A DNA stretch of 60,963 nucleotides from Clostridia bacterium (GTDB lineage Bacteria > Bacillota > Clostridia > Oscillospirales > CAG-272): contig JAFTUH010000024.1 of NCBI GenBank assembly GCA_017466375.1, positions 1 to 60,963 on the forward strand, read 5' to 3'. The position numbers and the translations under genes were made by a program. The notes under the pieces are model-generated. The model did no database searches. It had not been told where the DNA came from and worked only from the letters and a program-made list of their open reading frames with translations. This document shows positions 9,370-25,886 of this stretch, in pieces. The first letter of the stretch is position 1. Each line of letters begins with the position of its first letter.

Positions 9370-9398
9370 TTGACAAGCGTTTTTTCGAGTGGTATAAT
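9370..9398 (+). promoter_or_regulatory. Consensus promoter of the Ile T-box operon
   Basis: Perfect TTGACA (9370-9375), a 17-nt spacer and TATAAT (9393-9398), placing the transcript start near 9405, just before T-box stem I. Confidence 0.8.
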
Positions 9399-9404
9399 CC
9401 AAAT

Positions 9405-9680
9405 AACAACCGAATAACAGGCTGTGACGAAGACGGCGGAAAAGTACTCCCCACAGAGAGTCGGTGGCTGGTGAAAACCGACGGTGCGCTTTTCAGATGC
9501 CCATCCCTTCCGAGCCGGAAGCCCGAAAGCGAAAGCAAGTAGACGCTTCCCGTGCATGCTACGTCAGTGCATAGGACTTGTTTGAGTCCGAGAGAGGCAC
9601 CGTTTGGTGCAATTTGAGTGGTACCGCGGGTATTGTTATCACACCCGTCTCAAAGAAATTTGAGACGGGTTTATTTTATT
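9405..9680 (+). promoter_or_regulatory. T-box leader, predicted tRNA-Ile (ATC specifier)
   Basis: Stem I opens GGCT/AGCC (9420-9423 with 9513-9516) and carries the kink-turn GTGAC...CGAGC, the AGAGAG bulge and the GGTG distal loop. The T-box core GTGGTACCGCGGG lies at 9618-9630, and the competing terminator ACCCGTCTCAAA/TTTGAGACGGGT at 9643-9670 ends in a T-rich tract. The 4-bp helix GAAG (9429-9432) with CTTC (9507-9510) places the specifier at 9503-9505, ATC, isoleucine. One doubt: the base after the specifier is C, where a purine is usual. TGGT in the antiterminator fits a discriminator A, as in tRNA-Ile. Uncharged tRNA should allow read-through into the synthetase gene. Confidence 0.9.
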
Positions 9681-9711
9681 TTCCGGATAAAGCCGGAAAA
9701 CGGAGGTAAGT

Positions 9712-11979
9712 ATGCAAACATCTGCCATGAACAAACTGAGCGAAGTCGGTGCACGTATCCGAGAGATGCGTGAGATTGCGGGATTCTCGATTGCCGATAT
9801 GGCGGCAAAGACGGAAATTACCGAGGCGGACTATCTCCGGTACGAAAACGGAGAGCTTGACTTCCCGTACACGTTTCTGCACAAGTGCGCGCTTGCGCTG
9901 GATATCGAAATCACCGAGATTCTGGAAGGTCAGAGTGCGAATCTTTCCTCCTATACGGTAACGAGAAAGGGGCACGGATCCCGTGCCGCGAAGGAAGACG
10001 GCATCGAGATCTCCGACCTCGCGCCGATGTTCCGCGACAAGCTCGCCGAGCCGTACTACGTAAAATACGAGTATTCCGAAGCCCTTCAGAGCAAGCCGAT
10101 CCACTGCACGAAGCACGCCGGACAGGAGTTCGACCTCGTCCTCAAAGGAAAGCTGCGCGTACAGGTCGGCAGTCACGTTGAGGAGCTCTGTGAAGGTGAC
10201 TCCATCTACTACAACTCCTCCGTCCCGCACGGTATGATCGCCGTGGACGGTGCGGACTGTGAATTCGTCGCCGTCGTTATGGCAGGCGAGGACAGTAAGG
10301 AGAACGTCATCCACCAGGGCTACATCGCCGCACCGAAGGCAGAAAAGCTCGTCATCGAGGAGTTCATCAAAACGACGGAGGACAAAAACGGTCTGCTCAC
10401 GAAGATTGACTTCGAGAACGAGGACAAATTCAACTTCGCCTTTGACGTGGTGGACGCGCTCGGCCGCAAGAAGCCGGATGAGCTCGCCATGATCCACCTC
10501 GACAAGAACATGACGGAGCGCCGCTTCACGTTTGCCGATATCAAGCGTGCGTCCTCGCAGTGCGCGAACTACTTCAAATCGCTCGGCATCAAGCGCGGCG
10601 ACCGCGTGATGATCGTTCTGAAGCGTCACTACCAGTTCTGGTTTGCGATCCTCGGTCTGCACAAGCTCGGCGCGATCGCAATCCCCGCAACGAATCAGCT
10701 CCACGAGCACGATTTCACCTACCGCTTTGACGCTGCAGGTGTGTCCGCCATCCTCTGCACCGCAGACGGTGACACCGCCGCTGAGGTAGACAAGGCCGCC
10801 GCACAGTGTCCCACCGTCACGACGAAGATCCTCGTCGGCGGACAGCGTGAGGGCTGGCACGATTTCGATGCGGAGTATTCCCTGTTCACAGGTAAATTCG
10901 AGCGCACGGACGATGCCCCCTGCGGCGACGATTCCATGCTGATGTTCTTCACCTCCGGCACGACCGGATATCCGAAAATCGCCGAGCACAGCTACAAGTA
11001 TCCGCTCGGTCACTTCATCACCGCACGCTACTGGCACAACATCCAGCCGGGCGGTCTGCATCTGACGATCTCCGACACCGGCTGGGGTAAGGCACTCTGG
11101 GGCAAGCTGTACGGGCAGTGGATGTGCGAAGCCGCTGTCTTCACCTACGATTTCGACCGCTTCAACGCAGCGGAGATCCTGCCGCTGTTCGCGAAATACA
11201 ACATCTCCACGTTCTGCGCGCCGCCGACCATGTACCGCATGCTGATCAAGGAGGACATCTCCAAATACGATCTCTCCTCCATCCGCTATGCGACCACGGC
11301 AGGCGAGGCACTCAATCCCGAGGTATTCAAGCAGTTCCAGCAGCAAACCGGTCTTTGCATCATGGAAGGCTTCGGTCAGACGGAGACGACTTTGTCTATC
11401 GCAAATCTCGTCGGCAGTGCTTCGAAGATCGGCTCCATGGGCAAGCCCACACCGCTGTATGATATCGATCTCGTGGACGCCGACGGCAATCCCGTCAAGG
11501 ACGGCGAAAACGGCGAGATCGTCATCCGTACGAAGGAGGGCGAGCTCCCCGTCGGTCTGTTCAAGGGATACTACCGCGAACCCGAGAAGACCGCCGAGGT
11601 CTGGCACGACGGCATGTACCACACCCGCGATCTCGCATGGAGAGACGAGGACGGCTACCTCTGGTACGTCGGTCGTGCGGATGACGTCATCAAATCCTCC
11701 GGCTACCGCATCGGACCGTTCGAGATCGAGTCTGTCATCATGGAGCTGCCCTACGTTCTCGAATGCGGTGTCTCCGCTGCTCCCGATGAGGTCCGCGGTC
11801 AGGTCGTCAAGGCGAGCATCGTTCTGACGAAGGGCACCGTCCCCTCCGACGAGCTCAAAAAGGAGATCCAGGAGTACGTCAAGAAGCAGACCGCACCGTA
11901 CAAGTACCCGCGTATCGTTGTCTTCCGCGATGAGTTGCCGAAGACGATCAGCGGCAAAATCCAGAGAAACAAACTCTGA
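9712..11979 (+). CDS. XRE-cupin-acyl-CoA synthetase fusion (Ile T-box)
   Basis: 755 aa with three domains. An XRE helix-turn-helix is at about residues 6-66 (RIREMREIAGFSIADMA through the recognition helix ADYLRYENG). A cupin_2 barrel is at about 130-190 (HAGQEFDLVLKGKL and GDSIYYNSSVPHGM). An AMP-forming acyl-CoA synthetase fills about 215-755, with P-loop TSGTTGYPK near 412, A5 motif GFGQTETT, A8 region DDVIKSSGYRIG and catalytic lysine in TISGKIQRNKL at the C-terminus. The synthetase part is closest in feel to medium/short branched acyl (MACS-like) enzymes. From the Ile T-box I infer 2-methylbutyrate as substrate. Whether the HTH still binds DNA is unknown. Confidence 0.9.
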   Translation: MQTSAMNKLSEVGARIREMREIAGFSIADMAAKTEITEADYLRYENGELDFPYTFLHKCALALDIEITEILEGQSANLSSYTVTRKGHGSRAAKEDGIEISDLAPMFRDKLAEPYYVKYEYSEALQSKPIHCTKHAGQEFDLVLKGKLRVQVGSHVEELCEGDSIYYNSSVPHGMIAVDGADCEFVAVVMAGEDSKENVIHQGYIAAPKAEKLVIEEFIKTTEDKNGLLTKIDFENEDKFNFAFDVVDALGRKKPDELAMIHLDKNMTERRFTFADIKRASSQCANYFKSLGIKRGDRVMIVLKRHYQFWFAILGLHKLGAIAIPATNQLHEHDFTYRFDAAGVSAILCTADGDTAAEVDKAAAQCPTVTTKILVGGQREGWHDFDAEYSLFTGKFERTDDAPCGDDSMLMFFTSGTTGYPKIAEHSYKYPLGHFITARYWHNIQPGGLHLTISDTGWGKALWGKLYGQWMCEAAVFTYDFDRFNAAEILPLFAKYNISTFCAPPTMYRMLIKEDISKYDLSSIRYATTAGEALNPEVFKQFQQQTGLCIMEGFGQTETTLSIANLVGSASKIGSMGKPTPLYDIDLVDADGNPVKDGENGEIVIRTKEGELPVGLFKGYYREPEKTAEVWHDGMYHTRDLAWRDEDGYLWYVGRADDVIKSSGYRIGPFEIESVIMELPYVLECGVSAAPDEVRGQVVKASIVLTKGTVPSDELKKEIQEYVKKQTAPYKYPRIVVFRDELPKTISGKIQRNKL

Positions 11980-12031
11980 TAAAATCTGACAAAAATTCAC
12001 GCTTTATTCATACCAAGTCCTCTCTCCACCG

Positions 12032-12060
12032 TTGATTTATACGCGCGTATATGATATACT
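12032..12060 (+). promoter_or_regulatory. Promoter with a perfect palindrome in its spacer
   Basis: TTGATT (12032-12037), a 17-nt spacer and TATACT (12055-12060). The spacer holds TATACGCGCGTATA (12038-12051), a 14-nt perfect inverted repeat, the ideal place for a repressor to block RNA polymerase. It precedes the FtsX-LolD-type ABC transporter. Confidence 0.6.
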
Positions 12061-12104
12061 ACCTATATAATATACCGAGATTGTGAAAACGGAGGTGAGA
12101 GGAC

Positions 12105-13727
12105 TTGAAAATTTCGATGTGGTATGCACTGCGCGATGTGCGCAGCCGACCGAAACAGTTTATCTCCCTCGCCACGGTCAGTGCCGCGATTCTGACTGTG
12201 ATGATCCTCGCCGTTTTGTGGGAGGGTGCGCTCTGGCGTGAGGATGTCATGCCCGAAAAGGAGCACAACTACCACTTCTATTTCTACAATCTGTCCGACG
12301 AGGACAAAGCGTACATTCGATCACAGCCGTGGGTTCTGACAACGTACGACGCGTACAGCGAACTCGAATCCGTCAAAGGCACCGCGCATGAAAACACATT
12401 TCGCGTACGCGTGACATGGGAAAACAACGCGAAGTCGGCGACGTATGCCAGAGAGCTTTTTCTCAAGCGCGGCATTATCGAGAATGAGCCGTATGACAAG
12501 CAGTACGAGCGTGAATACAATTCCAATTACGAAGCGCTCCGCATCGCGTGGAATGATGCCGACGTGAAAAACGGCATGCCGATCGAAACGATGGCGAGAA
12601 ATCTTACGATCACGTTCATGCTGGATAAGTACATCCTCAACAATGACTACACGATGAAAACGCTCAACGGCTATACGATGCAGCCGACGTTTCTGCTCCG
12701 CACGTTTCTGCTCATGCTCTTTCTCTGTGCGGCGATTCTGATACTCACGCTCGAAACGTACCGCGCGAATTTCCGCGAATACGGTACGCTCCGCGCACTC
12801 GGCTTCAAAAACGGACAGCTTCTTCTCGTGAATCTCTGCCGCACCCTGCTCGTCAGTGCCGCGGCGATCCCCGTATCCGCTCTGTTTACGTTCGTCATCG
12901 TCCGGGTGTATTATCTCATTACCGCGCCGTTCCGCACGAGCGTCGGCAGCGTCTATTTCACGATCGACGAAACTGTTCCCGTCGCTGCGCTGTTTCTCCT
13001 TGCGATCTGCCTGACGGCTGCCTCGCTGCTCGCATCGGTGATCGTTTTCGCCATGCACAAATCGAAGACGACAATGTCCTATCTGCGCGGCGAGGATACG
13101 TTCGCCGTATCGTTCGTCTCCAAAACATCGCCGCGGTTTGAAAACGCCGCCGGTGTTCTCGGATACTGCCGACTGTACGCCGTCCGCGCCCGTGCGATGC
13201 TTTCCCGCTACACGGTCATCACCGCCATTATGATGCCGCTGCCGATGTTCTACCTCGTCGTCGGTGTTTCCATGCTTGGAAAGGATGACTCGGCGGCAAG
13301 TCAAATCAGCGCGATCTATACCGCATTTCAATCTGTCGCGGTGTTCGTCACAACCTTGTGCGTCACGCACGCCGCCTCCCGTATGTTCGCGTCATCCCGC
13401 TCGGCAGAGCTTGGTGTGATCCGCGCCATCGGCGGCAGTAAATCAACTGTGCGCAGTGTGACGTACCCGATCGCCGCTTTGCAGTTCGGCGCGGTGCTCG
13501 TCCTCGCACTTTTAATTAACGGTGTTATTACCGACGCGTTCGCTACCAACATAGCCGTAGCCTCCCGTGAAAATGCGAAAACGATTGCCGAATTGCTTGC
13601 CTCGGGGCTTTTAGGGGTTATCAGCGCGGTATGCTTCGTTCTCCCGTCCGCATTCAGCGGACTGATCTCGTTCCTCATCGGATTCTTCCGGCGTCCCATT
13701 ATCGCCGCGATCCGTGAGGTGGAATGA
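12105..13727 (+). CDS. ABC transporter permease, FtsX/MacB-like
   Basis: 540 aa from a TTG start, chosen for the AGAGGAC element just upstream and a good N-terminus (MKISMWYALRDVRSRPKQF). Membrane segments are seen at about 20-42, 195-215, 248-272, 290-315, 365-385, 405-420, 455-475 and 500-530. A ~150-residue extracytoplasmic loop follows TM1, and two FtsX-type three-helix cores carry TLRALGFKNGQ and GVIRAIGGSKSTV coupling helices. It pairs with the ATPase downstream. The family exports or resists peptides, or moves lipids or lipoproteins; the substrate is unknown. It interrupts the BCAA cluster with its own promoter and shows no T-box. Confidence 0.88.
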   Translation: MKISMWYALRDVRSRPKQFISLATVSAAILTVMILAVLWEGALWREDVMPEKEHNYHFYFYNLSDEDKAYIRSQPWVLTTYDAYSELESVKGTAHENTFRVRVTWENNAKSATYARELFLKRGIIENEPYDKQYEREYNSNYEALRIAWNDADVKNGMPIETMARNLTITFMLDKYILNNDYTMKTLNGYTMQPTFLLRTFLLMLFLCAAILILTLETYRANFREYGTLRALGFKNGQLLLVNLCRTLLVSAAAIPVSALFTFVIVRVYYLITAPFRTSVGSVYFTIDETVPVAALFLLAICLTAASLLASVIVFAMHKSKTTMSYLRGEDTFAVSFVSKTSPRFENAAGVLGYCRLYAVRARAMLSRYTVITAIMMPLPMFYLVVGVSMLGKDDSAASQISAIYTAFQSVAVFVTTLCVTHAASRMFASSRSAELGVIRAIGGSKSTVRSVTYPIAALQFGAVLVLALLINGVITDAFATNIAVASRENAKTIAELLASGLLGVISAVCFVLPSAFSGLISFLIGFFRRPIIAAIREVE

Positions 13728-13746
13728 TGCCTGAGAGGATAACGGT

Positions 13747-14457
13747 ATGAGAAAACATCGCAGTACGGAAAAAATCGACATTCCCGCAGACGACGTGCTC
13801 GTGTGCCGCGCGCTCACGAAATCGTATTTTCAAGGGGAGACGCACATCAAAGCGGTCAACGACTGCTATCTCACGGTGAAAAAAGGCGAATTCGCCGCGA
13901 TCATCGGCGAGAGCGGCTCGGGCAAATCGACCCTGCTTCATATGCTCGCCGGACTGGATGAGCCGTCGAGCGGCAAAGTATACCTTGCGGGCAAGGATCT
14001 GTTTGACATGCCCGACAGAGAGCTGTCCGATTTCCGCAGCCAGAAGATCGGCTTCATCTTTCAGTCATTCCATCTTCTGCCAGTCCTGACAGCGAAGGAG
14101 AACATCCTGCTCGCACAGAAAATCGCGGGGGCCTCACACTATCCGCGCTATCTTGACGAGCTTGCGAAAATGCTGAAAATCGATGACCGTCTCCACCATC
14201 TGCCGAGCGAAATGTCCGGCGGTCAGCAGCAAAGAGTCGCCGTGGCACGCGCGCTCATCAACCGCCCTGCCATTCTGTTTGCCGATGAGCCGACGGGCAA
14301 CCTCGACGAGGAATCCTCCGAGGAACTGATCCGCTTGCTTCTGGAGACACGAGCGGAGCTGTCCCAGACGCTCGTGATGGTCACGCACGACAAGCGGATT
14401 GCCGAGCGTGCAGACCGCATCTTTACGATGAAAAACGGCGTTTTGCGGGAAATGTGA
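13747..14457 (+). CDS. ABC transporter ATP-binding protein, LolD/MacB type
   Basis: 236 aa. Walker A GESGSGKST, Q-loop IFQSFHLLP, signature MSGGQQQRVAVARAL, Walker B ILFADEPTGNLDEES and the H-loop VMVTHDKR are all intact. It begins 19 nt after the permease stop, so the two make one transporter. No RNA terminator is obvious after it; the Val T-box promoter follows 42 nt later. Confidence 0.93.
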   Translation: MRKHRSTEKIDIPADDVLVCRALTKSYFQGETHIKAVNDCYLTVKKGEFAAIIGESGSGKSTLLHMLAGLDEPSSGKVYLAGKDLFDMPDRELSDFRSQKIGFIFQSFHLLPVLTAKENILLAQKIAGASHYPRYLDELAKMLKIDDRLHHLPSEMSGGQQQRVAVARALINRPAILFADEPTGNLDEESSEELIRLLLETRAELSQTLVMVTHDKRIAERADRIFTMKNGVLREM

Positions 14458-14498
14458 GAAAATATCTCCCCTTTTGTATGAAAATTCGCGGATTTCTC

Positions 14499-14527
14499 TT
14501 GACAGAAACCGTCTGATATGGTATAAT
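14499..14527 (+). promoter_or_regulatory. Consensus promoter of the Val T-box operon
   Basis: Perfect TTGACA (14499-14504), a 17-nt spacer and perfect TATAAT (14522-14527), the same geometry as the Ile and Leu leaders. Confidence 0.8.
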
Positions 14528-14532
14528 CCTTG

Positions 14533-14804
14533 AGTAAAAGCGATGACGAAGAGGATCGGAAGATCCGTTTGCGCAGAGAAGTGGCGGTCGGTGCAAGCCA
14601 TGGCAGACGGCTTTCGTATTTGTAGCTTCTGAGCCGGGAAGAAGAAAGCCGTAGGCAAGTAGAACTTCCCCGTAACTGCCGCGTAAAGGCATAGGGCTTG
14701 TCAGAGTCCGAGAGTGGCGTCCATCGGGCGCAATTTGAGTGGTACCGCGGGTGAATCGATTTTTCGCTCGTCTCAAGGATCAACATCTTTGGGACGAGTT
14801 TTTT
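14533..14804 (+). promoter_or_regulatory. T-box leader, predicted tRNA-Val (GTA specifier)
   Basis: Stem I has the kink-turn GATGAC (14542-14547) opposite TGAGC, a CAGAGA bulge and the distal GGTGCAA loop. The T-box core GTGGTACCGCGGG lies around 14738-14751. The terminator CTCGTC/GACGAG (14767-14798) ends in TTTTTT. Helix GAAG (14548-14551) with CTTC (14626-14629) puts the specifier at 14622-14624, GTA, valine, followed by the expected purine G. TGGT pairs with discriminator A. It controls the longest transcript of the cluster, through the Vor complex to the aminotransferase. Confidence 0.93.
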
Positions 14805-14829
14805 GTTTCGTCCCGCATGAGGAGGTCAA

Positions 14830-17127
14830 ATGGAAAACTCAATCAAAGGGCTGGATCTGAAAATTCTGGAAATGGCGGGACGTATCCGCGCACTCCGCGA
14901 GATTGAAGGTCTCACCACCGCCGAGATGGCAAAAAAGGCCGACGTTTCCGAGGCGGAGTACATTGCCTGCGAAAACGGACAGAGCGATCTTACCTTCGCG
15001 TTCATCTACCGCTGTGCGATCGCGTTTGACGTAGACGTCACCGATATTATCGAGGGTAAGAGCCCGACGCTGGCGGGATACACCGTCACCAGACGAGGTG
15101 CCGGACAGAGAATCGAAGAGGCGCACGGCATGACGTACTACAATCTCGCCTCTACGTTCAAAAACCGTATCGCGGAGCCGCTGTACGTCCGCATGGACTA
15201 TTCCGAAGACGCACTCCGCAAAGATATCGAAACGACAACGCATGACGGTCAGGAGTGCGATATCGTCATCGAAGGCACGCTCAAAATTCAGATCGGCTCG
15301 CACACGGAGATTCTCCACGCGGGCGACTCGATCTACTACGACTCGTCGATCCCGCACGGCATGATCGCCATCGACGGGCATGACTGCCTCTTCTACGCCA
15401 TCGTTCTGAATCCGACCGGCGCGGAAATTGAGGAGTTTGCCATCTCCGCCAAGGCACCCGAAAAGCCGAAGCGCGTGGACGAACAGAGCGCGGAGCGTAT
15501 CTATAACAAATTCGTGGACGTTGTCGAGGACGAAAAAGGCACGCCTACCTCCATCACGTTCAAAAACACCGAAAACTTCAACTTTGCATTCGATATCGTG
15601 GACGCGCTGGCAGAGACGAAGCCGGATAAAACCGCAATGTACTACCTCTCGGGCGACAAGACATTCGAGCATCGCTACACGTTCAAAGAGATGGCGAGAG
15701 AGAGCGCCCGCTGTGCGAACTATTTCAAATCGCTCGGCATCAAGAAGGGCGACTGCGTCATGCTCATTCTGAAGCGGCATTACCAGTTCTGGTTTGCCAT
15801 GCTCGGTCTGAACAAGCTCGGCGCGATCGCGATCCCGGCACCGAATCAGCTGCTCGCGCACGATCTCGAGTACCGCCTGCAGGTGGCGGATATCGCCGCT
15901 GTCGTCTGCACCGCGGACGGCGGTGTGGCGGCGGAGGTCGATCTCGCGGCACAGAAAGCCCCCTCTCTCAAAAATAAGATCCTCGTCGGCGGAAGCCGCA
16001 AGGGATGGCGCAATTTCAATGAGGAATCCGCCATGTACAGCAGCCACTACGACCGCACCGATGACGCGCCCGGCGGAGACGATCCGCTGCTCGCGTTCTT
16101 CACCTCCGGTACGACGGGATATCCGAAGATGGCTGTTCACAATCACAAATACCCGCTCGGTCACTTCCATACCGCGAAGTACTGGCACTGCGTGAATCCC
16201 GAGGGACTCCACTTCACCATCTCCGATACGGGCTGGGCGAAGGCAATGTGGGGTAAGCTCTACGGACAGTGGCTGTGCGAGGGTGCGACGTTCGTGTACG
16301 ATTTCGACCGCTTCGATGCGGCGCAGATCCTGCCACTGTTTGAGCAGTACAACATCACGACGTTCTGCGCACCGCCGACCATGTACCGCATGCTCATCAA
16401 AGAGGATCTGACGAAGTACAACTATTCCTCCCTCGAGCACGCGTCCACTGCGGGCGAGGCGCTCAACCCCGAGGTATTCAAGCAGTTTGAGTCCGCCACG
16501 GGTCTGCAGATCATGGAGGGCTTCGGTCAGACGGAAACGACGTGCCTGCTCGGCAATCTTGTCGGTACGGGACATAAGATCGGCTCCATGGGCAAGCCCT
16601 GCCCGATCTACGATATCCACCTGCTTGACGCGGACGGAAACGACGTCGGCGACGGTGAAACAGGCGAGATCTGTATCAAAACGGCAGACGGCGCACCGTG
16701 CGGTCTGTTCACGGGCTACTTCAAGGACGAAGAAAAAACCGCCGACGTATGGCACGACGGCTACTATCACACGTGCGATCTCGCATGGCGTGATGAGGAC
16801 GGATTCTACTGGTACGTCAGCCGTATCGACGACGTTATCAAATCCTCCGGCTACCGCATCGGTCCGTTTGAAATCGAGTCCGTCATCATGGAACTTCCGT
16901 ACGTCCTTGAATGCGGTGTTTCCGCGGCTCCCGATGAAGTGCGCGGTCAGGTAGTCAAGGCGAGCATCGTGCTCACCAAGGGTACCGTCGGCACGGATGA
17001 ACTGAAGAAAGAAATCCAGAACTACGTCAAGAAGCACACCGCGCCGTACAAGTATCCGCGCATCGTTGAGTTCCGCGAGGAACTTCCGAAGACGACCAGC
17101 GGTAAGATCATCAGAAGCAAGCTGTAA
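14830..17127 (+). CDS. XRE-cupin-acyl-CoA synthetase fusion (Val T-box)
   Basis: 765 aa, a paralogue of the protein at 9712 with the same order. XRE helix-turn-helix is at about 14-72, cupin at about 135-195 (HDGQECDIVIEGTL, GDSIYYDSSIPHGM), and AMP-forming acyl-CoA synthetase at about 225-765 with TSGTTGYPK near 424, GFGQTETT, DDVIKSSGYRIG and the catalytic lysine in TTSGKIIRSKL. GGAGG lies 6 nt before the ATG. A 54-residue stretch in the C-terminal subdomain is identical to the paralogue, although the rest has diverged. From its Val leader and the Vor genes behind it I infer isobutyrate as substrate. Confidence 0.9.
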   Translation: MENSIKGLDLKILEMAGRIRALREIEGLTTAEMAKKADVSEAEYIACENGQSDLTFAFIYRCAIAFDVDVTDIIEGKSPTLAGYTVTRRGAGQRIEEAHGMTYYNLASTFKNRIAEPLYVRMDYSEDALRKDIETTTHDGQECDIVIEGTLKIQIGSHTEILHAGDSIYYDSSIPHGMIAIDGHDCLFYAIVLNPTGAEIEEFAISAKAPEKPKRVDEQSAERIYNKFVDVVEDEKGTPTSITFKNTENFNFAFDIVDALAETKPDKTAMYYLSGDKTFEHRYTFKEMARESARCANYFKSLGIKKGDCVMLILKRHYQFWFAMLGLNKLGAIAIPAPNQLLAHDLEYRLQVADIAAVVCTADGGVAAEVDLAAQKAPSLKNKILVGGSRKGWRNFNEESAMYSSHYDRTDDAPGGDDPLLAFFTSGTTGYPKMAVHNHKYPLGHFHTAKYWHCVNPEGLHFTISDTGWAKAMWGKLYGQWLCEGATFVYDFDRFDAAQILPLFEQYNITTFCAPPTMYRMLIKEDLTKYNYSSLEHASTAGEALNPEVFKQFESATGLQIMEGFGQTETTCLLGNLVGTGHKIGSMGKPCPIYDIHLLDADGNDVGDGETGEICIKTADGAPCGLFTGYFKDEEKTADVWHDGYYHTCDLAWRDEDGFYWYVSRIDDVIKSSGYRIGPFEIESVIMELPYVLECGVSAAPDEVRGQVVKASIVLTKGTVGTDELKKEIQNYVKKHTAPYKYPRIVEFREELPKTTSGKIIRSKL

Positions 17128-17138
17128 TCGAGGAAAAT

Positions 17139-17807
17139 ATGGAATACAAACGCATTACCCTGTTCGCCGGGCATTACGGCTCGGGCAAAACGAACATCGC
17201 CGTGAATTACGCGATTGAGATGCGCAAGGCGGGGCGCCCCGTCCGCATTGCTGACCTCGACATCGTAAACCCGTACTTCCGCACGAAGGACAGCGCCGAC
17301 AGACTCGCCGAGGCAGGAATCGAGCTGATCTCCTCCGCCTATGCGAACTCAAATGTAGATATTCCCGCACTGCCTGCGCAGATGTACGCACTCACCGATG
17401 ACAAATCGTTTCATGCAGTGATGGACATCGGCGGCGATGACCGCGGCGCACTCGCGCTGGGACGGTACGCCCCCGCCATCCTTGCCGAAGGCGATTTTGA
17501 GATGCTGTTCGTCGCGAATATGTACCGTCCGCTGACACGGACGCCTGCCGAGGCACTCGAGGTCATGCGCGAGGTCGAGGATGCCGGCGGCATCCCGTTC
17601 ACGGCGATCGTGAACAACTCCAACATCGGCGCGGAAACGAAGCCGGAGGATATTCTGGCATCCGTATCCTACGCCGAGGAACTCTCGCGTCTTTCCGGAC
17701 TGCCCGTCAAAATGACAGCGGTCCGCGAGGATCTCATGGATGCGCTTTCGGGCAAGATCGAAAATCTTTTCCCGCTGACGCTCCAGAAAAAATACGCTTG
17801 GAACTGA
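17139..17807 (+). CDS. P-loop ATPase of the MinD/ParA-like class
   Basis: 222 aa. The Walker A is GHYGSGKTN, without the early signature lysine of true ParA/MinD. ADLDIVNPYF fits the A' region and MDIGGDDRGALALG the Walker B/switch region. It sits 11 nt after the second synthetase and 39 nt before the ferredoxin subunit, inside the Val operon. Loaders of iron-sulphur or other cofactors of this fold (NifH/MinD superfamily) would fit such a place, but no CxxC metal motif is present, so this remains a guess. Function unknown. Confidence 0.8.
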   Translation: MEYKRITLFAGHYGSGKTNIAVNYAIEMRKAGRPVRIADLDIVNPYFRTKDSADRLAEAGIELISSAYANSNVDIPALPAQMYALTDDKSFHAVMDIGGDDRGALALGRYAPAILAEGDFEMLFVANMYRPLTRTPAEALEVMREVEDAGGIPFTAIVNNSNIGAETKPEDILASVSYAEELSRLSGLPVKMTAVREDLMDALSGKIENLFPLTLQKKYAWN

Positions 17808-17846: not shown

Positions 17847-18053
17847 ATGGCAAAGCTGACATTCAAAACGGATCTCTGTAAGGGATGCGGACTGTGCGTA
17901 AGCGCCTGCCCGAAGAAGCTTCTTGTCATCGCCAAGGACAAGATCAACCAAAAAGGATACCATCCGGCTGAGATGACCGATGCTGACAAGTGCATCGCGT
18001 GCGCGTTCTGCGCCACCATGTGCCCGGACTGCATTATCACGATCGAGAAATAA
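17847..18053 (+). CDS. vorD: 2-oxoacid:ferredoxin oxidoreductase, ferredoxin (delta) subunit
   Basis: 68 aa with two 4Fe-4S motifs, CKGCGLCVSACP and CIACAFCATMCP, so it is a 2[4Fe-4S] ferredoxin that passes electrons between the TPP site and soluble ferredoxin. A very strong AAGGAGGAAAACAA precedes the ATG. It is the first of four consecutive Vor/Kor subunit genes (order D, B, A, C). Confidence 0.93.
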   Translation: MAKLTFKTDLCKGCGLCVSACPKKLLVIAKDKINQKGYHPAEMTDADKCIACAFCATMCPDCIITIEK

Positions 18054-18075
18054 TACCGATTTTCACGAAAGGAGT

Positions 18076-18129
18076 ATGTTCGCGCCACACGCGAACCGTA
18101 AGAAACCATGGCAGAAAAAGTACTTATGA
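18076..18129 (+). CDS. Possible 17-codon leader ORF overlapping the vorB start
   Basis: The only good SD before vorB (AAAGGAG, 18068-18074) lies 2 nt before an ATG that opens a 17-codon frame out of phase with vorB. Its stop TGA (18127-18129) overlaps an in-frame vorB ATG at 18126. A GTTCGCG/CGCGAAC hairpin (18078-18096) lies inside. It may be a coupling device or simply a spacer. Weakly supported as a translated peptide. Confidence 0.35.
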   Translation: MFAPHANRKKPWQKKYL

Positions 18130-19168
18130 AAGGTAACGAAGCCATCGCGGAAGCCGCTATTCTTGCCGGATGCCGCCATTACTTCGGTTATCCCATCACA
18201 CCGCAGACGGAAGTCGCCGCTTACATGGCAAAGCGTATGCCGAAGATCGGCGGTACGTTTTTGCAGGCGGAGAGTGAAGTCGCCGCTATCAACATGGTCA
18301 TGGGCGTTGCCGCAACCGGCAAGCGCACGATGACCTCTTCCTCCAGCCCCGGAATCTCTCTGAAGAGCGAGGGACTCTCCTACATCGCTGGATGCGATCT
18401 CCCGACGCTCGTTGTCAACGTCGAGCGCGGCGGTCCCGGTCTCGGCGGCATTCAGCCGTCCCAGTCCGACTATTTCCAGGCGACGCGCGGCGGCGGTCAC
18501 GGTGATTTCCACATGATCGTTCTCGCGCCCGCTTCCGTTCAGGAAATGGCGGATCTCACCATCCACGGATTTGATCTCGCGGACAAATACCGCATGACGA
18601 GCATGATCCTTGCAGACGGTACGATGGGTCAGATGATGGAGCCCGTATCCCTGGAGGCGCCCGAGGTACATACGTACGATAAATCCTGGGCTGTCACGGG
18701 CACGAACTGCGAGAGAGAGCACAACATCGTCAACTCCCTCTACCTCGTTCCCGAGGCTTTGGAGAAGACGAACTTCGAGCGCTACGAGCGCTACCGCATG
18801 ATCGAGGAAAACGAGGTCATGTACGAGGAGTTCATGATGGACGACGCCGAGATCTGCATCGCCGCTTTCGGTGTTGCCGCCCGCGTCTCCAAAAACGCCG
18901 TCCTCGCCGCAAGAGCGGAGGGCATCAAGGTCGGCATGATCCGTCCGATCACGCTGTGGCCGTTCCCGAAGGCTGTATTCGCAAAGGCTGCCGAGCATGT
19001 ACACACGTTCATCTCCGTGGAGCTCTCCATGGGTCAGATGATCGAGGACGTACAGCTCGCTACGAAATGCACCCGTCCCGTCCTGCTCTGCAACCGCGCA
19101 GGCGGCATGATCCCCTCTCCTGAAGAGGTCCTCGCAAAAATCAAAGAAGTAGCAGGAGGTATGAGCAA

Positions 19169-19172
<4 letters not shown>
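18108..19172 (+). CDS. vorB: 2-oxoacid:ferredoxin oxidoreductase alpha subunit (VorB)
   Basis: 354 aa beginning MAEKVLMKGNEAIAEAAI, the conserved VorB N-terminus, which supports this start despite a poor SD. The pyrimidine-binding domain shows GYPITPQTEVAAYM and the catalytic-side QAESEVAAINMVMGVAATG; domain II follows from about residue 230. With VorA it forms the TPP active site that interconverts branched 2-oxoacids plus CoA with acyl-CoA, CO2 and reduced ferredoxin. 2-oxoglutarate or another 2-oxoacid cannot be excluded by sequence alone, but the neighbouring BCAA aminotransferase and T-boxes favour branched substrates. Confidence 0.92.
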
Positions 19173-19917
<745 letters not shown>

Positions 19918-19921
<4 letters not shown>

Positions 19922-20454
19922 CGACGCAGATTCTGATTGCAGGATTCGGCGGACAGGGCGTTCTGTTCTCCGGTAAATTCCTTGCTTACAAAGCTATGAT
20001 GGAGAATAAAGAGGTCAGCTGGCTTCCCTCCTACGGTCCCGAAATGCGCGGCGGTACGGCGAACTGTAGCGTCATCGTTTCCGATACGCCCGTTGGCTCT
20101 CCGATCGTGGATAAGCCGGACGTGCTGATCGCCATGAACCTCCCTTCCCTCGACAAATACGAGGATGCGGTCGTTCCCGGCGGCATCATCATCGTGGATT
20201 CCACGCTGATCGCACGCAAGGTGAAGCGCACTGATGTAAAGGTTTACTACATCCCGGCGACGCAGATGGCGTCTGACGAAGGCATCACCACGCTTGCGAA
20301 CATGATCATACTCGGTCAGCTCATCCGCGTCTGCGATGCGGTATCCGATGAAAATCTGGAAGCATCTCTGAAGAAGGTTGTCTCTGCCCGCCGCGCGGAT
20401 ATGCTTGATCTGAACAAAAAGGCCATCGAGCTCGGCGTAAACTACGTCGGCTGA
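19918..20454 (+). CDS. vorC: 2-oxoacid:ferredoxin oxidoreductase gamma subunit (VorC)
   Basis: 178 aa beginning MTTQILIAGFGGQGVLFSGK, with the family motif GFGGQGV and the EMRGGTANCSVIVSD segment that contacts the alpha subunit. With D, B and A it completes a four-subunit enzyme. The start is fixed by the 4-nt overlap with vorA. Confidence 0.92.
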
Positions 20455-20490
20455 TCCCCGAATCTATTTTCAAACGAAAGGATTCTACCC

Positions 20491-21555
20491 ATGCTTGATA
20501 TCAAAATCACGAAAACCGCGAATCCCGCCGCAAAGCCGGATTCGTCCAAGCTCGGCTTCGGCCGCCACTTCACCGATCACATGTTCATGATGGACTACAG
20601 CCGCACGGAAGGCTGGCATGACGCCCGCATCGTTCCGTTTGCGAATCTGTCGCTCCATCCCGCCGCTACCGTATTCCACTACGGCGCGGAGATTTTCGAG
20701 GGACTGAAGGCATACCGCCGTCCCGACGGCGGCGTGCAGATGTTCCGTCCGATCGAGAACATCCGCCGTATGAACAACTCCGCTGAGAGACTGCGCCTGC
20801 CGCAGCTCGACGAGGAGGAGGCACTGCAGATTCTCGACACGTTCGTTCGCCTCGAGGAGAGCTGGGTTCCGTCCGAGCCGGGTACGTCTCTGTATCTGCG
20901 TCCGTTCCTGTTCGGTAACGACGAGCACCTCGGCGTACACTCCATTGACAACGCACGCTTCGTGCTGATCGCTTCCCCCGTCGGCAGCTACTATGCCGAG
21001 GGCATCAACCCCGTCCGCATCATGATCGAGGCAGACGATGTACGCGCCGTCCGCGGCGGTACGGGTTACGCCAAGTGCGGCGGTAACTATGCCGCATCCA
21101 ACCGCGCAGGCGAGAACGCCGAGAAACTCGGCTTCTCCCAGGTACTGTGGCTGGACGGTGTGGAGCGCAAGTACATCGAGGAAGTCGGCGCGATGAACGT
21201 CATGTTCCGCTTTGGCGACGAGATCGCAACGCCCATGCTGACCGGCTCGATTTTGCCCGGTATCACGAGAAAGTCCTGCATTGAGCTTCTGAAGGCTGAG
21301 GGCTGGACGGTCAATGAGCGTCTCATCAGCATCGATGAGCTGGGCGAGGCTCTGAAGAACGGCACGCTTACCGAGGCATGGGGCTGCGGTACCGCGGCTG
21401 TTGTCTCTCCGATCGGCGAGCTCTTCTACAAGGGCGAGAGCTTCAAAATCGGCGAGGGCAAGATCGGCGAGGTCACGCAGAAGCTGTACGACACGCTGAC
21501 CGCTATCCAGTGGGGTAAGGTTGAGGATACCCACGGCTGGATCCGCAAAATTTAA
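20491..21555 (+). CDS. ilvE: Branched-chain amino acid aminotransferase
   Basis: 354 aa, a fold-type IV PLP enzyme of the longer BCAT (BCAT1/IlvE II) subgroup. Seen: FHYGAEIFEGLKAYR, YLRPFLFGND, the PLP lysine in GTGYAKCGGNYAAS, EVGAMNVMFRF, and TGSILPGITRKSCIEL with the phosphate-binding GCGTAAVVSPIGE. It converts 2-oxoisovalerate, 2-oxo-3-methylvalerate and 2-oxoisocaproate to Val, Ile and Leu with glutamate. It is the last gene of the Val transcript, 36 nt after vorC, and is closed by a strong terminator. Confidence 0.95.
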   Translation: MLDIKITKTANPAAKPDSSKLGFGRHFTDHMFMMDYSRTEGWHDARIVPFANLSLHPAATVFHYGAEIFEGLKAYRRPDGGVQMFRPIENIRRMNNSAERLRLPQLDEEEALQILDTFVRLEESWVPSEPGTSLYLRPFLFGNDEHLGVHSIDNARFVLIASPVGSYYAEGINPVRIMIEADDVRAVRGGTGYAKCGGNYAASNRAGENAEKLGFSQVLWLDGVERKYIEEVGAMNVMFRFGDEIATPMLTGSILPGITRKSCIELLKAEGWTVNERLISIDELGEALKNGTLTEAWGCGTAAVVSPIGELFYKGESFKIGEGKIGEVTQKLYDTLTAIQWGKVEDTHGWIRKI

Positions 21556-21561
21556 TCATCC

Positions 21562-21600
21562 GGGGCGCGAAAGTTTTTTGAGAAATTTTCGCGCCCCTCT
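21562..21600 (+). terminator. Terminator after ilvE
   Basis: GGGGCGCGAAA/TTTTCGCGCCCC long hairpin followed by a short T-rich stretch that runs into the Leu T-box promoter. Confidence 0.7.
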
Positions 21601-21628
21601 TGACATCACGGGAAGAGTTTGCTATAAT
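21600..21628 (+). promoter_or_regulatory. Consensus promoter of the Leu T-box operon
   Basis: Perfect TTGACA (21600-21605), a 17-nt spacer and perfect TATAAT (21623-21628). Confidence 0.8.
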
Positions 21629-21634
21629 ATAAAA

Positions 21635-21905
21635 TCATATAAAAAATGCGATGACGGAATTACGTTCCGATGAAGCGGCACAGAGAGTCGGCGGTTGGTG
21701 TGAGCCGATGTGCGGAGTCGGTGTACGGTCTCGTTCCCGAGCAGAGTTTCCGAAAGCGAAAGCCGTAAGAAACTACGGACGCCCCGTTACCATGGCTAAG
21801 AACTTGCCTGAGTTCTGAATGAGTGATTCCCTCCCCGGGAGTAAATAGGGTGGTACCACGGATTTTATTCGTCCCTGAGATTTCTGTCTCGGGGACTTTT
21901 TTTGT
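21635..21905 (+). promoter_or_regulatory. T-box leader, predicted tRNA-Leu (CTC specifier)
   Basis: Stem I shows GATGAC (21650-21655) opposite CGAGC, the CAGAGAG bulge and the GGTTGGTG distal loop. The T-box core AGGGTGGTACCACGG lies at 21847-21861. The terminator GTCCCTGAGA/TCTCGGGGAC (21871-21896) ends in a T-tract. Helix GGAA (21656-21659) with TTCC (21734-21737) sets the specifier at 21730-21732, CTC, leucine, followed by purine G. TGGT fits discriminator A. It controls the LeuA-like gene and the TIM-barrel synthetase fusion. Confidence 0.93.
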
Positions 21906-21948
21906 CAGGCATACAAAATCACAACTTATACCGAAAGGAACAAACCTC

Positions 21949-23349
21949 ATGAAAACCATTACTGTTTCCGACATGACTATGGCGATCGGCACTGCCGAAA
22001 CCGCGCTCACCTTCCGCGAAAAGACGGAGATCGCCCGCTGCCTTGACAAAATGTGTGTTGACATCATCGAATTTGCACCGATCGAAAACGAAAAAACGGA
22101 TAGCCTCCTCATCCGTACCGTCGCACCTCTAATGAAAAACAGCGTCATCTCTCTGCGCACCGGCTATGATGAAGCATCCGTTGATACCGCGTGGGCAGCC
22201 CTCTCTTCCGCAAAGAAGGCACGGCTGTCTGTCGCGTTCCCGGTTGCCGCCGCACAGATGGAGTTCGTCTGCAAGATGAAGCCGAAGGCTGTCCTTGCCG
22301 CGATCCCCGCGATGATCGCAAAGGCGAAAACCTGTACCGCTGATATCGAATTTTGCGCCGTGGACGCCACGAGAGCGGAGTATCCCTTCCTCATCTCCGC
22401 GATCGAAGCTGCCGTAGCTGCCGGTGCCTCCACCGTTACCGTGTGCGACACCGCTTCCCTCTTCACACCCGAGGAGATGGCGGATTTCGTCAAAAAGATC
22501 CGTGCTATCCCCGCGATGGCAAACGTGCGTCTCGGCGTCGAGTGCACGAACGGTCTCGGCATGGCGCTTGCCTGTGCCGTCGCCGCCGTAAATGCCGGTG
22601 CGGATGAAATCAAATGTGCCGCCGGCAACGGTGTTCTGCCGAGCGAAGCGCAGATCACCGCATTCATGAAGAGCCGCGGCGATACATTCGGCGTTGCCAC
22701 CGCGCTGAACACGGCAGAAATCACCCGCATCACCTCGCAGATCGAGTGGATCCGCAGCGGCAAGAAAGCAGAACAGCCTGCCGCTAAGGTCACCTCCCAG
22801 AGCGCGCCCGACACGATCGCGCTGGACAAAAACGCAAATATCGCCGTTGTAGCAGACGCTGTCCGTTCCCTCGGCTACGATCTGTCCGAGGAGGACACCG
22901 CCAAGGTATATGAGGCGTTCGCACGAATCGCCGCCAAAAAGCCGGTCGGCACGAAGGATCTCGAAGCGATCATTGCGACAAGTGCTCTGCAGGTGCCGCC
23001 GACGTATAAGCTCGTCAGCTACGTTGTCAACAACGGCAACATCATCTCCTCCACCGCGCAGATCGTGCTTGAGAAGGCCGGCCGTGAGATCTCCGGCGTG
23101 TGCATCGGCGACGGTCCGATTGATGCTTCCTTCCTCGCCATCGAGCAGATCATCGGCCACCACTACGAACTGGATGAATTCCGCATCCAGGCAGTCACCG
23201 AGGGACGTGAGGCAATGGGCTCCGCGCTCATCAAGCTCCGCGCAAACGGCAAGCTCTACTCAGGCAACGGTATCTCCACCGACATCATCGGCGCAAGTAT
23301 TGCGGCATATCTGAATGCACTGAATAAGATCGTGTACGAAGAAGCGTAA
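21949..23349 (+). CDS. 2-isopropylmalate synthase-like protein with lost catalytic residues
   Basis: About 466 aa. It aligns by eye along the LeuA TIM barrel (REKTEIARCLDKMCVDIIE; DATRAEYPFL; DTASLFTPEE) and keeps a C-terminal LeuA dimer/allosteric domain (about residues 345-460, with STAQIVLEKAG and GSALIKLRANGKLYSGNG). The catalytic DTTLRDG motif is DMTMAIG here (Arg and metal-ligand Asp replaced by Ala12 and Ile13). The metal HxHND is ECTNG (Glu198, Thr200), and the NGIGERAGN loop is lost. It is therefore unlikely to condense acetyl-CoA. Under a Leu T-box, a leucine-binding regulatory or partner role is possible. The SD AAAGGA supports this start. Confidence 0.85.
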   Translation: MKTITVSDMTMAIGTAETALTFREKTEIARCLDKMCVDIIEFAPIENEKTDSLLIRTVAPLMKNSVISLRTGYDEASVDTAWAALSSAKKARLSVAFPVAAAQMEFVCKMKPKAVLAAIPAMIAKAKTCTADIEFCAVDATRAEYPFLISAIEAAVAAGASTVTVCDTASLFTPEEMADFVKKIRAIPAMANVRLGVECTNGLGMALACAVAAVNAGADEIKCAAGNGVLPSEAQITAFMKSRGDTFGVATALNTAEITRITSQIEWIRSGKKAEQPAAKVTSQSAPDTIALDKNANIAVVADAVRSLGYDLSEEDTAKVYEAFARIAAKKPVGTKDLEAIIATSALQVPPTYKLVSYVVNNGNIISSTAQIVLEKAGREISGVCIGDGPIDASFLAIEQIIGHHYELDEFRIQAVTEGREAMGSALIKLRANGKLYSGNGISTDIIGASIAAYLNALNKIVYEEA

Positions 23350-23363
23350 GAGAGGTCACGCAC

Positions 23364-25886
23364 ATGAAACTGTCATTTTCCACCAAGGGCTGGCACGGCA
23401 GATCGTTTGACGATTTCTGCCGCATCGCGGAGGATCTCCGTTTCGCCGGCATTGAGCTGCACAACATCACCAAATCCGCCTTTACCGAAAACGGCGGTCC
23501 GTTCAGTAAGGGCAATGCGCCCGCAACGATCCGCGAGCTGATCAACCGCCAGCTCACGCTCCCCTGTATTGATTCCGTCTGTGACATCGCCGATGAGACG
23601 AAAACGGAGGAAAACTGCGCGGAGATCGCCGGCTGTATCGAAGCCGCGCGTAATCTGCGCATTCCGTTCGTGCGCGTTCATGCGTATGAGCATACCGCAG
23701 GCGCCTCCGTTGATCAGGCGATGGCATGCCTCACGCGTGCACTTGCAATCGCCGAGGAGAAGAACATCACGCTGCTTGTCGAGACGGTCGGTATTTTCGC
23801 CGACACGAAGAAGCTGCGCGATGCGCTCAATCATTTTGCCTCCGATCATCTCGCCGCGCTGTGGGATATCCACTCCACGTACCGCGTCGGCGGCGAAACG
23901 CCCGACAAGACGATCGAAAACCTTGGGGCGTACGTTCAGCACGTCCATCTGAAGGATTCTGTCGATATGGACGGCAAGGTCGAATACCGCCTTATCGGCG
24001 AGGGGGATCTGCCGCTTGATGAACTCATGATGGCGCTCCGCTCCGTCAACTACGACGGATTCCTCTCCCTTGTGTGGGATCCCGCATGGATGCCCGAAAT
24101 CGACGATATGGAGATCATTTTCTCCCACTTCGTCAGCACGATGAGCCGCTACGCGGACACATCCCGCGCGGAGACAGTTTACTACGAAAACCGCACAGGT
24201 ACTGGCAAATTCCTTTGGAAAAAGGATGCACTGATTGAAAAGACCTTCTCGCAGGTGCTGGACAGCATGGCGGAGGAATTCCCCGATCAGCTCGCGTTCA
24301 AATACACGACGCTCGACTACACGCGCACCTATGCCGAGTTCCGCGATGATGTGGACACGTTCGCACGCGCCCTGATCGCGCTGGGCGTTAAAGCAGGTTC
24401 CCACGTCGCTGTATGGGCAACAAATCTGCCGCAGTGGTATATCGCGTTTTGGGCAACAACGAAGATCGGCGCCGTTCTTGTCACTGTCAACACGGCGTAC
24501 AAGATCCATGAACTGGAGTATCTGCTCCGTCAGTCCGACACGCACACGCTCGTGATGATCGAAAACTACCGCGACTCCAACTATAAGGAGATCGTGGCGG
24601 AACTCTGCCCCGAACTTGCCGAAACGAAATCGGGCAAGCCTCTGCACGCACACCGTCTGCCGTTCCTCCGTAACGTCGTGACCGTCGGCTTCTCGATGCC
24701 CGGTGCCATGACGTGGGACGAAGCCGTCGCGCGTTCCCGTGAGGTCCCCGTCGAGGAAGTCTACCGCCGCGCCGCGATGGTCAGCGTCCACGACGTCTGC
24801 AACATGCAGTACACCTCCGGCACGACCGGATTCCCGAAGGGCGTTATGCTGACGCATTACAACATCGTCAACAACGGAAAATGCATCGGCGACCGCATGG
24901 ATCTCTCCACGGCGGACCGCATGATGATCCAGGTACCGATGTTCCACTGCTTCGGCATGGTGCTTGCCATGACCGCCACGATGACGCACGGCGGTACGCT
25001 GTACCCGATCCCGTACTTCTCGCCGAAGCCGTCTCTTGCGTGCATCAATCAGGAACACATCACCGCATTCCACGGCGTGCCGACGATGTTCATCGCACTG
25101 CTCGAGCATGAGGACTTCCCGAAAACGGACTTCTCCTACATGCGCACGGGTATTATGGCAGGCAGTCCCTGCCCGATCTCCGTCATGCAGGACGTGGTCA
25201 ACAAGATGAACATGAAGGAGATCACGATCGTGTACGGACAGACGGAGGCATCCCCCGGATGCACGATGAGTTCCACGGACGATCCGCTGGAAGTCCGCGT
25301 CGGCACGGTCGGACGCGCGCTGCCAGAGATCGAATGCAAGATCGTCGATCCCGAGACGGGAGAAGAACTCCCCGTCGGGCAGACAGGCGAATTCGTCGCC
25401 CGCGGCTACAACATCATGAAGGGCTACTACAAGATGCCCAAGGCAACGGCGTCCGCCATCGATAAGGACGGCTGGCTCCACACGGGCGACCTCGCGGCAA
25501 AAACCGAAGACGGCAACTACCGCATCACGGGACGTCTGAAGGACATGATTATCCGCGGCGGTGAGAACATCTACCCGAAGGAGATCGAGGAGTTCATCTA
25601 CACCCATCCGAAGGTCAAGGATGTACAGGTCATCGGCGTACCGGATGAGCAGTACGGCGAGGAGATCATGGCGTGCATCATTCTGAAGGACGGCGAAACG
25701 ATGACGGAGGATGAGATGAAGATCTACATCCGCGATCACATGGCGCGCCACAAGGTACCGCGCTACATCGATTTCGTGGACGGATTCCCGATGAACGCCG
25801 CCGGCAAGATCCAGAAGTTCAAGATGCGCGAGGAAGCGGTCAAGAAGCTGAATCTGCAGAAAGCCGCGAATATCGTCACGGCGTAA
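23364..25886 (+). CDS. TIM-barrel (AP-endonuclease 2/IolE-like)-acyl-CoA synthetase fusion
   Basis: 840 aa. Residues 1 to about 270 form a xylose-isomerase-like TIM barrel (LVETVGIFADT, LWDIHSTYRVGGET, QHVHLKDS). The last metal-ligand Glu of that family appears as VWDP, so metal binding may be altered. Residues about 300-835 are a FadD/AcsF-like AMP-forming acyl-CoA synthetase with YTSGTTGFPKGVMLTH near 483, YGQTEASPG, LHTGDLA, GRLKDMIIRGGENIYP and the catalytic lysine in NAAGKIQKFKM. It lacks the HTH-cupin part of the other two synthetases. Located 14 nt after the LeuA-like gene under the Leu T-box, so isovalerate is the inferred substrate. The role of the barrel is unknown. Confidence 0.88.
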   Translation: MKLSFSTKGWHGRSFDDFCRIAEDLRFAGIELHNITKSAFTENGGPFSKGNAPATIRELINRQLTLPCIDSVCDIADETKTEENCAEIAGCIEAARNLRIPFVRVHAYEHTAGASVDQAMACLTRALAIAEEKNITLLVETVGIFADTKKLRDALNHFASDHLAALWDIHSTYRVGGETPDKTIENLGAYVQHVHLKDSVDMDGKVEYRLIGEGDLPLDELMMALRSVNYDGFLSLVWDPAWMPEIDDMEIIFSHFVSTMSRYADTSRAETVYYENRTGTGKFLWKKDALIEKTFSQVLDSMAEEFPDQLAFKYTTLDYTRTYAEFRDDVDTFARALIALGVKAGSHVAVWATNLPQWYIAFWATTKIGAVLVTVNTAYKIHELEYLLRQSDTHTLVMIENYRDSNYKEIVAELCPELAETKSGKPLHAHRLPFLRNVVTVGFSMPGAMTWDEAVARSREVPVEEVYRRAAMVSVHDVCNMQYTSGTTGFPKGVMLTHYNIVNNGKCIGDRMDLSTADRMMIQVPMFHCFGMVLAMTATMTHGGTLYPIPYFSPKPSLACINQEHITAFHGVPTMFIALLEHEDFPKTDFSYMRTGIMAGSPCPISVMQDVVNKMNMKEITIVYGQTEASPGCTMSSTDDPLEVRVGTVGRALPEIECKIVDPETGEELPVGQTGEFVARGYNIMKGYYKMPKATASAIDKDGWLHTGDLAAKTEDGNYRITGRLKDMIIRGGENIYPKEIEEFIYTHPKVKDVQVIGVPDEQYGEEIMACIILKDGETMTEDEMKIYIRDHMARHKVPRYIDFVDGFPMNAAGKIQKFKMREEAVKKLNLQKAANIVTA

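Follow-up and report, generated by a model that had tools for sequence, protein, structure and literature searches.

A stretch of 60,963 nt (positions 1–60,963 of contig JAFTUH010000024.1) of a Clostridia bacterium from the Oscillospirales (CAG-272; assembly GCA_017466375.1), referred to below as the window, carries at positions 9370–25886 three consecutive forward-strand operons, each headed by a T-box leader with a specifier codon for a different branched-chain amino acid (BCAA). Together they encode three acyl-CoA synthetases, a 2-oxoisovalerate:ferredoxin oxidoreductase (Vor), the aminotransferase IlvE, and an inactive-looking homologue of the 2-isopropylmalate synthase LeuA. In our assessment, these operons very probably constitute a starvation-induced system of BCAA salvage by reductive carboxylation, in which each tRNA calls for the synthetase of the matching branched acid. 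The leaders, their specifiers and the gene order are directly observed, as are their conservation among relatives and the presence in the acyl pocket of a single Gly/Ala residue that tracks the specifier.

T-boxes switch genes on when the cognate amino acid is short. By extension from T-box biology, each leader would be released by its own uncharged tRNA (tRNA-Ile, tRNA-Val or tRNA-Leu), and the synthetase then supplied by the operon would be the one predicted to act on 2-methylbutyrate, isobutyrate or isovalerate, respectively. Reductive carboxylation of the acyl-CoA to the 2-oxo acid is predicted for the shared, ferredoxin-dependent Vor, and amination of the latter to the BCAA for IlvE; in the Leu operon, our best guess is that the LeuA homologue would sense leucine and restrain isovalerate activation. 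We infer the substrates, the direction of flux and the induction at starvation. Activation by AMP-forming enzymes uses up ATP, and the Vor reaction can be reversed with reduced ferredoxin; combined with the logic of T-box control and the de novo genes not found (see below), this favours synthesis over breakdown.

T-box leaders and operon contents

The initial annotation of this DNA had read the three specifiers as ATC, GTA and CTC (Ile, Val and Leu), and this reading is borne out by alignment with the Rfam T-box model RF00230 and by a script that takes the specifier as the codon adjoining the 4-bp helix abutting the kink-turn. The Ile leader (9415–9655; 81.0 bits, E 1.7e-16) has its ATC specifier at 9503–9505, the Val leader (14534–14778; 74.9 bits, E 6.2e-15) a GTA specifier at 14622–14624, and the Leu leader (21642–21879; 105.7 bits, E 7e-23) a CTC specifier at 21730–21732, which confirms the presence of one T-box for each of the three amino acids. 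All three align end to end with the model (positions 1–219) and contain the T-box core, stem I with the helix on the kink-turn side, and a readable specifier; the gathering score of 93 is exceeded by the Leu box, with the Ile and Val boxes scoring under this threshold. The base following the specifier is G in the Val and Leu boxes and C in the Ile box, the usual base being a purine; Ile boxes of relatives show C or A. Each leader is preceded by a promoter of the TTGACA-17-TATAAT form agreeing with the consensus at 12 of 12 positions (9370–9398, of sigma-70 type, 14499–14527 and 21600–21628), and each has an intrinsic terminator identified from the terminator listing and by folding (9643–9670, 14766–14799 and 21871–21896). 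These terminators are the three top-listed ones of the whole window, overlap the antiterminator, and fold at −19.9, −21.4 and −19.7 kcal/mol, respectively, values equalled by none of 200 shuffles.

As a control for the reading procedure, we compared the six other T-boxes of the same genome with their downstream genes, and four matched in amino acid (Val with ValS, Trp with TrpB, Phe with PheS, and Met with O-acetylhomoserine sulfhydrylase); behind a Thr box, the next gene codes for a sodium/solute symporter-like protein. The genome also encodes tRNA-Val(TAC), with A as the discriminator base, and tRNA-Leu(GAG). The last of the six control boxes, a Cys (TGC) T-box at G000:C32:9173-9379 (L009), heads a 113-residue open reading frame without an NCBIfam match. 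Rfam matches to CsrC and anti-hemB were dismissed as chance ones, as they lie far under their gathering scores and overlap or end on terminator-like hairpins.

The Ile box is followed by P0001 (9712–11979), in which a helix-turn-helix (HTH) domain and a cupin are fused to an AMP-forming acyl-CoA synthetase (Pfam HTH_19, Cupin_2 and AMP-binding), the likely substrate being 2-methylbutyrate; domain matches identify P0002 (14830–17127), behind the Val box, as an enzyme of the same architecture, likely acting on isobutyrate. Their best solved relative is 3etc (660.8 and 605.6 bits, respectively), and their best NCBIfam match is MbcS (NF047394), at 419.1 and 434.6 bits against a cut-off of 850, so that they may work like MbcS, though not filed as members of that family. 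Further downstream in the Val operon lie genes for VorD, the ferredoxin-like subunit (17847–18053; two Fer4 stretches), VorB (18108–19172; NF005507, 535.1 bits, above the cut-off of 399), the thiamine diphosphate subunit VorA (19169–19921; TPP_enzyme_C; the scores against NCBIfam beta-subunit models stay under their curated cut-offs), the gamma subunit VorC (19918–20454; POR domain), and the BCAA aminotransferase IlvE (20491–21555; TIGR01123, 385.3 bits, above the cut-off of 250). Their placement downstream of the second box had been annotated initially, and the domain and family matches agree with it. The same annotation put a synthetase after each T-box. Behind the Ile and Val boxes the synthetase comes first; behind the Leu box a LeuA-like gene comes first and the synthetase second. 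It mentioned neither the inactive-looking LeuA, nor the HTH-cupin fusions, nor the ilvD pieces described below.

Specifier, gene class and acyl pocket across relatives

A search for the same gene order in other genomes had been proposed along with the initial annotation, and we found the match between specifier and gene to be kept across 121 loci. The survey comprised the window, 40 further stretches, one of them belonging to its own genome and the other 39 to relatives, and 80 named loci, the latter being the best 80 of at least 586 and coming mostly from Clostridia-type assemblies. A pattern script located 186 T-box cores, all of which were taken for specifier reading; two duplicate boxes were removed and near-copies were retained. 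Gene classes were set by the best BLAST match to the window proteins, independently of the specifier. A ruminant host appears in the titles of 38 of the 80 named relatives, and a horse in one; the close relatives of the source bacterium are mainly gut Clostridia, many of them ruminant-derived.

Every readable box preceding a gene of the studied classes agreed with its class (166/166). The specifier was ATC in 60 of 60 readable boxes of the Ile class (59 read by the script and one by eye), GTN in 74 of 74 of the Val class (65 GTA, 8 GTC and 1 GTG), and CTN in 28 of 28 of the LeuA-like class (22 CTC and 6 CTG); where a TIM-barrel synthetase of the P0003 type follows its box immediately, the specifier was CTC (4/4). 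The script's reading of GCG for an Ile-class box in L087 was discarded, since by eye this specifier is ATC. Five boxes before the studied classes gave no reading, and 13 headed no classed gene; among the latter are boxes reading GTA in L048 and L073, which head synthetases lacking the HTH domain. Among copies with sufficient upstream sequence, the script found a box before 76/86 genes of the Val class, 58/67 of the Ile class and 29/38 of the LeuA-like class, which are lower bounds, as cmscan recovers missed boxes (e.g. L048, 4242–4501). Val (GTC) T-boxes also occur before genes of other classes, in L047 (core near 4752, minus strand) and L080 (minus strand). In L092, L121, L124 and L127, the Ile and Val synthetases are adjacent, and neither has a script-found T-box.

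We then compared 59 Ile-box with 74 Val-box enzymes, setting aside 24 without a readable box; the two sets fall into 34 and 39 groups at 80% identity, i.e. they consist of related sequences and do not represent 133 independent events. In six alignment columns, the Ile-box and Val-box enzymes have no residue in common; five of these columns belong to the N-terminal, HTH or linker parts. The only fully separating column in the catalytic part is occupied by Gly in all 59 Ile-box enzymes (Gly459 in P0001) and by Ala in all 74 Val-box enzymes (Ala470 in P0002). Among the enzymes set aside, Ala is found in 14/14 members of the Val class, and Gly in 9/10 of the Ile class. This column aligns with Val310 of the Escherichia coli acetyl-CoA synthetase Acs, which, according to excerpts of PMC8511477, lies within 4 Å of the acyl group and lines the acyl pocket, its substitution altering substrate choice. 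The pocket positions 311, 386 and 414 display no difference between Ile-box and Val-box enzymes. As isobutyrate has one carbon fewer than 2-methylbutyrate, it would make sense for the pocket wall to carry an additional methyl group in the Val-box enzyme.

The solved relative 3etc, which we take to be Macs of the archaeon Methanosarcina acetivorans (MacsMa), carries Gly at this column. The preferred substrate of MacsMa is 2-methylbutyrate (PMC10455477, in part), and MbcS accepts 2-methylbutyrate and isobutyrate but uses isovalerate poorly (PMC10026030, in part); the latter fits with the presence of a separate enzyme subfamily behind the Leu box.

A simple history of two clades, one for each amino acid, was rejected, since the labels interleave on the tree of synthetase domains. 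The number of label changes on this tree is 12 for Val and 8 for Ile, versus means of 54.5 and 48.4 after shuffling, and the pocket residue tracks the specifier label despite the interleaving. From position 651 of P0002 onward, P0001 and P0002 are 92, 88 and 80% identical in successive 50-residue blocks, with their N-terminal parts being about 40% identical. The much greater likeness of the C-terminal parts (11500–11979 and 16648–17127) suggests exchange between the paralogues, in which the pocket residue has stayed distinct, and such exchange is perhaps the reason for the interleaved labels. Another of the columns fully separating Ile from Val enzymes is in the HTH domain, at position 47 of P0002, presumably adjoining the recognition helix; the HTH and cupin regions lie at 9712–10300 and 14830–15450. 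In some relatives (L053, L062 and L071), the HTH-cupin part is a separate gene adjoining an HTH-less synthetase.

The leucine arm and the de novo pathway genes

The first gene behind the Leu box, P0004 (21949–23349), codes for a LeuA-like protein that is likely a pseudoenzyme and may act as a sensor. It scores 261.4 bits against the 2-isopropylmalate synthase model TIGR00973, far under the cut-off of 598.7, and its leucine-binding regulatory domain (LeuA_dimer, PF08502) scores 106.9 bits, well above the cut-off of 24.9. In the 39 members of this family, the pair of metal-binding His residues is retained in none, the catalytic Arg in three and the metal-binding Asp in four. The ERAG stretch is deleted. 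The AlphaFold2 model of P0004 (mean pLDDT 86, pTM 0.58) matches LeuA structures in Foldseek, including the leucine-bound 3fig. Judging from this pattern of retained and lost residues, our guess is that the protein may act as a leucine sensor restraining isovalerate activation.

The second gene, P0003 (23364–25886), encodes a fusion of a TIM barrel (AP_endonuc_2) with an acyl-CoA synthetase from a subfamily other than that of the HTH-cupin pair; its best NCBIfam match is NF009233 (PRK12583 fatty acid CoA ligase), at 714 bits against a cut-off of 832. Domain matches, and the tendency of this gene and LeuB to exclude each other, point to isovalerate as its likely substrate. Gene presence and absence were compared in 39 genomes, and the statistics were repeated with one genome per genus. 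The TIM-barrel synthetase is present in full or nearly full length in 22 of the 39, three barrel-less copies being scored as without. A LeuB above cut-off was detected in 2/22 genomes with this synthetase versus 12/17 without it (P = 1.2e-4), or 2/18 versus 12/17 with one genome per genus (P = 5e-4). Three genomes (G006, G011 and G037) possess IlvC and the TIM-barrel synthetase, with no LeuB above cut-off.

In the genome from which the window originates (91% complete), searches for IlvC and acetolactate synthase found neither (the search did not extend to LeuC, LeuD or threonine deaminase), and the only LeuB match reached 32.9 bits against a cut-off of 353.2; a standard BCAA pathway was thus not found in complete form. 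The gene ilvD is represented by just two pieces (G000:C38:59037-59499; about 5038–5500 in L059), one covering 98 profile positions and the other 61. They are in different frames and the intervening part is gone, which may be taken to signal the loss of a de novo pathway. IlvC was found in none of nine genomes carrying the HTH-cupin Val synthetase versus 16 of the 30 others (P = 0.005; 0/5 versus 16/30 with one genome per genus, P = 0.049). The proposal of salvage from branched acids, made already in the initial annotation, gains support from the specifier match, the pocket residue, the result for IlvC, acetolactate synthase and LeuB, the exclusion of LeuB by the TIM-barrel synthetase, and the prevalence of ruminant hosts.

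Alternative explanations, related systems and neighbouring genes

Several observations weigh against salvage by matched synthetases. No T-box was found by the script before 10/86 genes of the Val class, 9/67 of the Ile class and 9/38 of the LeuA-like class, and in L092, L121 and L124 cmscan likewise detects no box ahead of the synthetases. In relatives, the base following the Ile specifier is often C instead of a purine, and tRNA-Ile(GAT) is absent from the 42 tRNA matches of the incomplete assembly, which its gaps may explain. Ala occupies the pocket position in all six HTH-less synthetases examined, of which two follow Val boxes and the remaining four have no box found, so that Ala alone does not prove a role in valine supply, and the pocket argument is slightly weakened; furthermore, the HTH-cupin synthetase of G010 that is nearest to the Ile class has Ala, with no box found. 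By analogy with MbcS, which takes both alpha-branched acids, the Gly/Ala switch may only tune preference. At the given completeness, a gene not found in the source genome may sit in a gap. The link between the Val synthetase and IlvC is weak if restricted to one genome per genus with at least 90% completeness (0/4 versus 16/28, P = 0.10). A similar exclusion was not borne out for the Ile module: its tie to the loss of the de novo route is not clear, as IlvC was detected in 6/22 genomes with this module and 10/17 without it (P = 0.06; per genus, P = 0.18), and there was no link between this module and the loss of citramalate synthase (P = 0.48). Finally, IlvC and all three modules are absent from six genomes, so the absence of IlvC does not in itself imply salvage.

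Of the other ways to read these operons, one retains salvage but makes the synthetases promiscuous, so that any of them would activate all of the branched acids and the boxes would merely sum the demand for a shared Vor–IlvE route. The use of both 2-methylbutyrate and isobutyrate by MbcS (PMC10026030, in part) is in its favour, as are L049, L054 and L079, which show only an Ile-box enzyme ahead of Vor; we nevertheless regard it as unlikely, given the strict match of specifier to class, the equally strict Gly/Ala split, and the use in Leu-box operons of another synthetase subfamily, which selectively excludes LeuB. A different destination for the acyl-CoAs is also suggested by MbcS, the top-scoring NCBIfam family for the two HTH-cupin synthetases, because MbcS of Staphylococcus aureus feeds branched fatty acids (according to a portion of PMC10026030), and the products could serve as lipid primers instead of amino acid precursors. 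The specificity of the T-boxes for amino acids, the linked Vor and IlvE genes, the separate Leu enzyme and the de novo genes not found make this very unlikely; lipid and amino acid uses can coexist.

Breakdown of BCAAs, with IlvE and Vor working oxidatively and the synthetases running backwards to make ATP, would agree with the better-known direction of Vor enzymes, the reaction being reversible. Such a system would not be expected to be activated by T-boxes at amino acid shortage, AMP-forming synthetases consume ATP and seldom conserve it, and key de novo BCAA enzymes were not found in the genome; we therefore hold degradation to be extremely improbable. Hardly more credible is the idea of an active 2-isopropylmalate synthase in the LeuA-like protein, with the Leu operon making leucine from 2-oxoisovalerate: the fold and regulatory domain are indeed kept, as judged from the predicted structure and Foldseek, and Geobacter provides recorded cases of T-boxes before genuine leuA genes (PMC2700814, in part), but the residue losses and the ERAG deletion described above, the score far under LeuA cut-offs, and the lack of a LeuB above cut-off in the same genome all speak against it.

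Returning to salvage with matched synthetases, we can tentatively extend it to a tRNA-addressed regulon in which specifier and pocket residue would be inherited as a pair, the dead LeuA would guard the leucine arm as a free-standing sensor of leucine, and two of the synthetases would, through their HTH-cupin halves, be their own transcription factors; for this extended version, our doubts slightly outweigh our confidence.

The system is real, conserved and orderly, and consists of known parts in a new combination. Rumen anaerobes make BCAAs from branched acids by reductive carboxylation, as established in older labelling work, and the role of branched-chain volatile fatty acids as rumen growth factors is long established. 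The overall conversion would be alike here, with the window adding candidate genes and, for every acid, a regulator. Known BCAA T-box regulons comprise ileS, valS, leuS and transporter genes (PMC2494555, in part), and a Leu T-box answering tRNA-Leu(GAG) before leuA has been predicted in Geobacter (PMC2494555 and PMC2700814, each in part). They resemble the window in leader architecture and specifier logic, but the genes under the window boxes encode acyl-CoA synthetases, Vor and a LeuA that looks inactive; the main text of the PMC2494555 survey contains none of the terms “acyl-CoA”, “AMP-binding” and “ferredoxin oxidoreductase”. The combination of a T-box, a matched branched-acid synthetase and a pocket residue was not met in the open-access literature among the matches listed, which is no proof of its absence. 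As for the individual proteins, 3etc, taken to be MacsMa, is nearest to the two HTH-cupin synthetases among solved structures and shares Gly with the Ile-box enzyme, but it is archaeal and its match spans the synthetase part only, without HTH or cupin. MbcS feeds lipids, and the window enzymes reach half of its family cut-off. Genuine LeuA has the fold and regulatory domain in common with P0004, which is without the catalytic and metal-binding residues.

Three synthetases, one Vor and one aminotransferase, with each synthetase labelled by its T-box with the amino acid that it should serve, provide a concrete gene set for isoacid use. They would make it possible to predict the isoacid needs of individual gut microbes from sequence, which is of practical value for ruminant feeding. 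If the pairing of specifier with pocket residue is true, a regulatory RNA reports on enzyme specificity and the substrate can be read from the riboswitch. The inactive-looking LeuA may represent a leucine sensor of a new type.

Between VorD and the Val synthetase lies a gene for a P-loop ATPase-like protein (17139–17807; weak ParA/CbiA matches), which is kept beside VorDBAC in relatives and may assist the oxidoreductase as an accessory factor. Between the Ile and Val operons lie genes assigned by family match to an FtsX-like permease (12105–13727) and an ABC transporter ATPase that is its likely partner (13747–14457). This pair adjoins these operons only in the window and in G001 among the compared stretches, and the permease is probably outside the pathway. 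A tandem pair of thiamine pyrophosphate riboswitches is present at 633–892 in a relative, L071.

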